Both the position numbers and the translations under genes were made by a program. Of a stretch of 64,000 nt of DNA, positions 35,960-38,449 are shown one piece after another (positions within the stretch are counted from its first letter, which is position 1; each line of letters starts with the position of its first letter). The notes beneath the pieces were generated by a model that ran no database searches, was not told the origin of the DNA, and saw only the letters and a list, made by a program, of their open reading frames with translations. The stretch is from Brachybacterium vulturis (lineage in GTDB: Bacteria; Actinomycetota; Actinomycetes; Actinomycetales; Dermabacteraceae): contig NZ_CP023563.1 in the NCBI RefSeq assembly GCF_002407185.1, positions 2,418,001 through 2,482,000 of the forward strand, in the 5' to 3' direction.

Positions 35960-36276
35960 GCGCTCTGTGTGCGGTGATCCCATTTCCAGCATTGTTCAGT
36001 GGGCGGCCTTGAGCTGTGTTATCGTCCGTGCGTCCCGGGCGACCGAAAAGGCGTGTTAGGCATTGTTCTCTTTCCCTCGCACGGTCCTCAGGGATGGGTT
36101 TCTCTGCAGCCGTCGGAATCACTCCTGGCCCGCCTGCAGAGCCCAGCTATCCGCGGCACCCGGGGCCGACCGCTCCTCCACAGTGGGCGCCCGTCCACCG
36201 TGAGCAGGCCGACCGTTCCTCCACCGAGACCACTTATGCACAATTCTGCGGCGCGCCGTTCCTCCACACCACCTGC

Positions 36277-36294
36277 TTATCCACATTGTCCACA
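36277..36294 (+). other. Tandem DnaA-box-like sites
   Basis: TTATCCACA is immediately followed by TTGTCCACA (one mismatch), in the same orientation. A third variant, TTATGCACA, lies 35 nt upstream. Confidence 0.6.
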
Positions 36295-36426
36295 GTTTCT
36301 CCGCGGGGTCTTGCGCCGGCGCGACGCCTCGGTAGAGTTGCGGGAAGGCAATTCTTTCAGCTCTCGCAGATCTGCACATTGTTTTCGCGAGAATTCGTCG
36401 ACCATGTCCGGGAGGAGGTGTGCACA

Positions 36427-37899
36427 ATGGGTGATCTTCGCGCTGGCACGAACGTGCCGTTCGATGAGGACGCGGCCGGTGAGGTCTCCTCCGGGTCGGA
36501 ACTCTCGGTCGGCTCATTCTCAGAACCCACTCCCGCCGCACCTGTCCTCCCGCCGCATCTGCGATCCATCCATGCCGCCTCGATCCAGGAGAGCCGGCAC
36601 CTCGCCGCGCGCTTCACCGCGCTCGCCCCGTCGTTCCATGACCCGGAGAGCGAGGAATGCGACGCGGACGCCGCCGAGGCGGAGCTCCTCTCGGCGGCAC
36701 TCGCCCTGCGCTGCACCCGCACCGTCGCGGACCGCATCCTCCGCGACGCCCACATCGCGGTCACCCAGCTGCCCCTCACCCTGCCCCGGCTGGAGTGCGG
36801 GGAGTTCCCCGCCGCCTGGTTCGACCGGATCCTGCGCCGCACCCGGCATCTCACCCCGCACCAGATGACTGTCGTGGACGCCGCCGTCTCGCTGTGGCCC
36901 GCCACGGTGACCACGGAGCAGTTCCACCACCGGCTCTCGCGCCTGCTCGGTCGCGTGGAGTCCCAGCAGGAGACCCCCGCCCACCTCACTCCTGAGGGCC
37001 GGCGCCGGGTGGAGCTGCTGCCCACCCGGGATGACGGGATCGGCTGCCTGCGGGTGGTCGGCCCGGCCCCGGAGATCCTCGCCCTCGCCCAGCGGCTGGA
37101 CTCCGCCGCCCGCGCGATCCAGGCCGCCCAGCGCCGCGCCTTCGAGGCAGGGGAGGCGCCCCCGCTGGATCCGCGGGGCACCGTCGCCGAGACGGCGACC
37201 CCCGCCTCCCTCGCCCTCCTCCAGTACGACCTGCTGGGCGGTGCGGCCTTCGACACCGACGGGGTCCAGGTGCCACAGCCTCGCTTCCGCCTCAACGTCA
37301 CCGTGCCCGTCCTGACGCTGCTCGGCGGCTCCCAGGAGCCCGGCCTGCTGGAGGGCACGACCCCGATCCCCGCCGCGATGGCACGCGAGCTGGCCGGGCA
37401 GAGCGAGACCTGGCACCGCGTGCTCACCGATCCGTGCAGCGGCACCTTCCTGCCGCTGCCCGCGACGCGCTACACCCCGACCCGCGCCATGCTCGAGCAC
37501 CTGCGCCTGCGCAACACCACCTGCGCGGTCCCCGGATGCACCCGCCCCACCTCCTGGGCCTCCGAGGCGGACCACATCGAGGAGTACGACCACGGGGATC
37601 CGGAGCACGGAGGTCTCACCGAGATCGAGAACCTGCACCTGCTGTGCTGGCAGCACCACCGGGCGAAGACCGCCGGCCTGCTCGACCCGACCCGCCTGCC
37701 GAGCACTCCCGGCCTTCCGGGACGGACCGCCTGGTCGATCCAGGATCGGGTGACCGTGATCGTCCGCGACAACGAGGACCTCGCCACCCCGCACATGACC
37801 GAGGCGCTCATGGACTCCTGGGCCCGCTACCAGGCACGGCGCGAGTCACGACGGCGGGCCCTCGAGCGGCGGAAGAACCCGCCGCCACCGCCGTACTGA
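36427..37899 (+). CDS. DUF222 and HNH endonuclease domain protein
   Basis: 490 residues. The N-terminal DUF222 helical region covers about 35-320 (HTRHLTPHQMTVVDAAVSLW-like segments). The C-terminal HNH domain reads NTTCAVPGCTRPTSWASEAD, HIEEYDHGD, then NLHLLCWQHHRAKT, with Cys pair and histidines in place. This family (REP13E12-like in mycobacteria) is multi-copy in many actinobacteria and is probably mobile or selfish; its role is not proven. The ATG at 36427 has GGGAGGAGG upstream, which rules out the longer frame. Confidence 0.87.
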   Translation: MGDLRAGTNVPFDEDAAGEVSSGSELSVGSFSEPTPAAPVLPPHLRSIHAASIQESRHLAARFTALAPSFHDPESEECDADAAEAELLSAALALRCTRTVADRILRDAHIAVTQLPLTLPRLECGEFPAAWFDRILRRTRHLTPHQMTVVDAAVSLWPATVTTEQFHHRLSRLLGRVESQQETPAHLTPEGRRRVELLPTRDDGIGCLRVVGPAPEILALAQRLDSAARAIQAAQRRAFEAGEAPPLDPRGTVAETATPASLALLQYDLLGGAAFDTDGVQVPQPRFRLNVTVPVLTLLGGSQEPGLLEGTTPIPAAMARELAGQSETWHRVLTDPCSGTFLPLPATRYTPTRAMLEHLRLRNTTCAVPGCTRPTSWASEADHIEEYDHGDPEHGGLTEIENLHLLCWQHHRAKTAGLLDPTRLPSTPGLPGRTAWSIQDRVTVIVRDNEDLATPHMTEALMDSWARYQARRESRRRALERRKNPPPPPY

Positions 37900-38255: not shown

Positions 38256-38387
38256 CCGGTCAGCGCTGCCCCGCTCCTGCCCCCTCCCTCGTGACCGTCG
38301 CCTGTCACACCCCTCCCGCAGGCTTCGTATGCATGTTCGAAGTCATGACCCGGACTCCTTGAGGGGTGCGCCGCAGAGGCGTACAGT

Positions 38388-38403
38388 TCGAACCCCTGTT
38401 CGA
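38388..38403 (+). promoter_or_regulatory. LexA (SOS) box upstream of imuA
   Basis: TCGAACCCCTGTTCGA matches the actinobacterial SOS box TCGAAC-N4-GTTCGA with both half-sites perfect. It lies about 47 nt before the imuA start and shows that the translation start must be downstream of it. Confidence 0.9.
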
Positions 38404-38449
38404 ACATCTGTGCGAAGAGGAACGGCGAGGAGCGGGAGGAGGACGCGTG

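Follow-up and report, generated by a model that had tools for sequence, protein, structure and literature searches.

What is the role of a cluster of DnaA-box-like nine-mers in front of a DUF222-HNH nuclease gene of Brachybacterium vulturis? DUF222/13E12-HNH proteins are encoded by abundant repeated genes, and we know of no function for them. The cluster lies in a 64,000-nucleotide stretch of the chromosome (the window, at 2.42-2.48 Mb). The original prediction offered three explanations: a DnaA-titration site, a DnaA-regulated promoter of the nuclease gene, or part of a mobile DUF222 element that exploits replication. The results presented here indicate that the cluster is probably a site of competence control rather than a DnaA-titration site.

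The nine-mers and the two-part element at the locus

The three nine-mers were confirmed in the window: TTATGCACA at 36234-36242, the perfect box TTATCCACA 35 nt further on at 36277-36285, and TTGTCCACA, which directly abuts it, at 36286-36294. They lie in an AT-richer island, as had been claimed (63% GC against 72% for the window), and no origin genes are near, since dnaA and dnaN are located at ~629-631 kb. The proposed excess of such boxes over chance is modest locally, with five matches to TTATCCACA at one mismatch or fewer in the window against 1.5 in shuffles. Over the whole genome (3.8 Mb), TTATCCACA occurs 18 times and its reversed control three times, and DUF222-HNH genes account for 14 of the 18 occurrences (binomial ~1e-35). 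Three of the remaining four are near dnaA/oriC (629636 and 631523 at dnaA/dnaN, and a dense group of boxes at 640.7 kb), and the last is near a rhomboid gene. In this dense group (C1:640516-640773, L254), which is close to trxB and 9-10 kb away from dnaA, 260 bp contain about eight DnaA-box-like sites; oriC may be located there, because the dnaA-dnaN region itself contains few boxes.

Each box of the original prediction belongs to a two-part unit that had been overlooked, of which it forms the second half. This element consists of TTCCTCC(A/C)CA (half-site 1), a spacer of 7 or 8 nt, mostly 8 nt, and YYRTCC(A/C)CA (half-site 2), which together form a 27-bp direct repeat. In the window the element is repeated in tandem, with three copies that begin at 36173, 36216 and 36259, a period of exactly 43 bp and an 8-nt spacer in each copy; an extra half-site 2 is added to them. 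The features of the locus are as follows.

36173-36199, + strand: degenerate copy 1, CTCCTCCACA-N8-CCGTCCACC, sharing its 43-bp period with the two other copies
36216-36242, + strand: degenerate copy 2, TTCCTCCACC-N8-TTATGCACA, second half not conserved in orthologs
36259-36268, + strand: half-site 1 of copy 3, TTCCTCCACA, the motif enriched in DUF222 upstream regions
36277-36285, + strand: half-site 2 of copy 3, TTATCCACA, its end 47 nt from the -10
36286-36294, + strand: extra abutting half-site 2, TTGTCCACA, its end 38 nt from the -10 and also in phase
36311-36316, + strand: putative -35, TTGCGC, within the conserved stretch GGTCTTGCGCC, invariant in 4 orthologs
36333-36338, + strand: putative -10, TAGAGT (TAGAGT, TAAAGT or TAAAAT in orthologs)
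36427-37899, + strand: DUF222-HNH gene, 490 aa, with a conserved ribosome-binding site, GGGAGGAGGTGTG, upstream

The product of this gene belongs to the DUF222-HNH family, as it matches PF02720 (9.6e-11) and PF01844 (2.3e-05) above the Pfam cut-off. Its AlphaFold model is weak (pLDDT 73, pTM 0.36); a Foldseek search with this model returned nothing at E < 0.001, and PADLOC gave no match for the protein. The gene adjoins imuA'-imuB-dnaE2, and between adh and imuA', beside this mutasome, the presence of a DUF222 gene is polymorphic among Brachybacterium species (L320, L321 and L323 versus L322). Overlapping SOS boxes, TTCGAACCCCTGTTCGAACATCTGTGCGAA, are located upstream of imuA'-imuB-dnaE2 at 38387-38416 of the window. 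Elsewhere in this genome, two near-identical DUF222 copies (L005 at 2384.8 kb and L008 at 1112.1 kb) are preceded by extra copies of the element that are divergent.

Conservation, orientation and promoter geometry

We compared 1 kb of upstream DNA from each of 110 DUF222 genes, 10 from this genome and 100 from relatives. TTRTCCACA was found within 700 bp in 47 of the 110 upstream regions, 54 times in the forward and twice in the reverse orientation. Word counts revealed TTCCTCC(A/C)CA as the second enriched motif; it is one-stranded and occurs in 29 of the 110 regions versus none in shuffles. The joint pattern TTCCTCCMCA-N10/11-TNCACA gave 396 matches in 38 Brachybacterium genomes (sum of the tabulated counts) and none for its reversed control, and a stricter pattern was present in 11 of 13 genomes of the genus versus 1 of ~185 other genomes of the order.

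The alignment of upstream regions that had been suggested as a check thus found the boxes conserved in relatives. At the window locus, orthologous promoters retain TTCCTCC..TTATCCACATTRTCCACA, and in three other species the half-sites, the -35 region, the -10 and the ribosome site are all kept; these promoters do not preserve the nine-mer TTATGCACA at 36234. At the imuA' locus, the element is absent from three genomes that lack the DUF222 gene and present in one that has it. DUF222 genes of other families are mostly without the element, and in its place there is often an SOS box. It was not seen in 27 DUF222 loci from other families of the phylum, which yielded one isolated TTATCCACA. In a few DUF222 genes of other families, a lone TTRTCCACA stands ~38-40 nt before a -10. 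Four DUF222 promoters of another family (f5; L071, L073, L074 and L233) have a TTRTCCACAGATYCGTTGCGG-like start, a PafBC-type core, TGTCGGTG, and a leaderless ATG, and are without half-site 1.

The position of the element relative to the promoter is tightly restricted. Across 77 sequence clusters, half-site 2 lies 27-29, 37-40 or 47-50 nt from the -10, with almost nothing between these distances (Rayleigh nR2 30; 0 of 20000 uniform draws), while the mean identity of the spacers is just 28%. In many of the genes other than DUF222 that carry the element, the -10 is at 38-40 nt and the ATG at 50-52 nt after the element, and their transcripts are therefore predicted to be leaderless. Together, helical phasing and a single orientation are the hallmark of a factor in contact with RNA polymerase. 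The element accordingly looks like an activator site, being strand-specific (54:2) and placed in helical steps of 28, 38 and 48 nt from the -10. The footprint kept in orthologs and the single orientation also bear out the earlier view that the boxes are part of the promoter region of the nuclease gene. It is unlikely that the element works as an RNA-level motif, because it lies upstream of the putative -35. Autoregulation by DUF222 proteins is also unlikely, since the element serves paralogs that are only 23-50% identical as well as unrelated genes, and DUF222 genes of other families mostly do without it.

Genes preceded by the element

Sites not associated with DUF222 genes were read with no selection by gene. 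The 135 distinct sites comprise 69 at DUF222 genes and 66 at others; 21 of the 135 are unclassified, and several of these are DUF222 promoters overlooked by the profile. The -10 offset of the non-DUF222 sites is 38-40 nt. Competence operons account for 12 of the 66 (~5e-23 under a simple binomial that assumes 3300 genes and four operons of this kind, a value that is only indicative since the sampling of sites is uneven across genomes). In the genomes of relatives, the element precedes comEA (TIGR00426 above the cut-off; L309, L310, L318 and L328), and comEC (PF03772) follows the element-bearing comEA at L369 and L372. In B. vulturis itself it stands at 3219163 before yraN-comM-dprA, behind which a tyrosine recombinase gene (xer) is located. 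It also precedes ssb in four genomes, recA in one genome of one species only, and the gene of a DnaQ-like exonuclease (NF005927). One promoter element is thus shared by comEA/comEC in relatives and by dprA, ssb or recA. In well-studied bacteria comEA-comEC, dprA, comM and ssb form the core of natural transformation, and it is for this reason that we read these targets as a competence regulon.

The remaining element-bearing genes encode SAF-domain proteins, M23 peptidases, DUF2199, DUF4192 and MTES_1575-like proteins, and two families without a Pfam match. About half of the non-DUF222 targets (DUF2199, MTES_1575-like, DUF4192, M23 and the unnamed families) have no clear link to transformation. 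One family, whose proteins start with M(D/N)xxWGC(D/E)TE, combines the element with a leaderless ATG at seven loci (L288, L297, L300, L342, L349, L353 and L366). It has no Pfam match; judged by eye, its sequences seem to resemble WXG100-type secreted proteins.

On the strength of these sequence comparisons, it is likely that the cluster is an upstream site of a competence regulon that includes DUF222-HNH genes and is served by a dedicated activator other than DnaA. With its three tandem copies and extra half-site, the cluster would serve the DUF222-HNH promoter as its upstream activation site. A transcription factor would bind the element in one orientation, on the face of the helix turned to RNA polymerase, and raise transcription from a -10 some 28, 38 or 48 nt away. 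The regulon in Brachybacterium would include comEA-comEC, yraN-comM-dprA and ssb, as well as recA in one species, and DUF222-HNH genes would form its largest group. We infer from this arrangement that the factor is an activator and a dedicated competence regulator distinct from DnaA, and that in competent cells the DUF222-HNH nucleases work on DNA. To the broader proposal, that an undescribed activator dedicated to this task in Actinomycetota controls transformation in Brachybacterium and that DUF222-HNH proteins are competence-induced processors of incoming DNA or of the DNA of neighbours, we would give an even chance.

Candidate regulators and comparison with known systems

The binding protein might also be DnaA, which would then activate both DUF222-HNH and competence genes and couple them to replication; we consider this doubtful. 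Half-site 2 matches the DnaA box consensus, the oriC region of B. vulturis uses TTRTCCACA too, and the variation within half-site 2 (T/C, T/C, A/G, T, C>G, CACA) is compatible with a DnaA box of relaxed consensus. In actinomycetes the box reads TT(G/C)TCCACA, and DnaA of Caulobacter binds weakly to TCCCCA (PMC4285127), so that half-site 2 could be regarded as a strong box and half-site 1 as a weak one akin to the Caulobacter TCCCCA W-box. However, DnaA boxes do not explain the whole conserved element: half-site 1, TTCCTCC(A/C)CA, is a non-box form that keeps TTCC in place of the TTR of DnaA boxes, and no exchange between the two halves is seen although their spacing is fixed at mostly 8 nt. 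The competence promoters contain poor DnaA boxes (TTGTCCCCA, CCGTCCCCA and TTCTCCACA), and an ortholog in a related genome (G002) has lost the box while retaining half-site 1 and the core TCCACA. Moreover, DnaA is universal, whereas the bipartite element is specific to the genus. Of the DnaA-regulated nuclease promoter that was originally proposed, the promoter element stands, being conserved upstream of the gene; DnaA as its binder is possible and not favored. A titration site of the datA/DARS type, with no role in the promoter, is highly improbable. The 14 gene-linked perfect boxes across the genome would bind some DnaA, but the orientation and helical phase of the element are locked to the -10 and its presence follows that of the gene at the imuA' locus, where the three genomes without the gene also lack the boxes. 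Its position is thus not independent of the promoter. The idea of a mobile DUF222 element exploiting replication finds no support either, as the promoter element also occurs before single-copy comEA, yraN-comM-dprA and ssb.

It is rather improbable that the element assists promoters of the LexA or PafBC type as an accessory site and that DUF222-HNH, recA, ssb and dnaQ are its targets as damage genes. The window gene lies beside imuA'-imuB-dnaE2, an SOS-like box is present in 36 of the 110 DUF222 upstream regions, and the RecA-NDp/PafBC-type promoter motif TTGTCRGTG-N8-TAnnnT, which has been described (PMC5656591), is present in 24. The LexA regulon of Mycobacterium tuberculosis has been reported to include 13E12 HNH genes (PMC4181829). 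However, neither comEA-comEC nor yraN-comM-dprA belongs to the damage genes, and the window promoter contains neither a LexA SOS box (TCGAAC-N4-GTTCGA) nor the PafBC motif. Both motifs also occur in families without the element, and they are therefore separate modules.

The control of competence by a dedicated activator is the reading that we prefer, and it bears on the way in which Actinomycetota turn on competence. In Micrococcus luteus, an actinobacterial model, the upstream signals and the regulatory cascade of competence were reported in 2026 to be unidentified (PMC12849477), which makes the proposal directly testable. Our literature search found no paper that joins DUF222 with a DnaA box, and the matches listed contained no documentation of transformability or competence in Brachybacterium. 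A single defined promoter element that joins competence and DUF222-HNH genes may serve as bait for the regulator. It also supplies a catalog of candidate transformation genes and suggests, in concrete terms, what the DUF222-HNH nucleases may do.

The element shares features with three known systems. As in DnaA-regulated promoters and actinomycete DnaA boxes, its second half matches TT(G/C)TCCACA; unlike them, it has a conserved first half that is not a DnaA box, a spacer of mostly 8 nt, one orientation and a distribution limited to the genus, and its boxes are poor at competence genes. The DUF222-HNH genes belong to the same protein family as the mycobacterial REP13E12/DUF222-HNH genes under LexA, and some Brachybacterium copies have SOS boxes, but the bipartite arrangement sets them apart from the DUF222 loci sampled in other families, where one isolated TTATCCACA occurred. 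Competence boxes of other bacteria include the ComX/sigma-X cin-box, the ComK box and the CRP-S site. Like these, the Brachybacterium element is a short signal common to promoters of the comEA/comEC, dprA, ssb and recA type and absent from most others; unlike these, it is a direct repeat in two parts, helically phased and located before the -35, and it is found in Actinomycetota.
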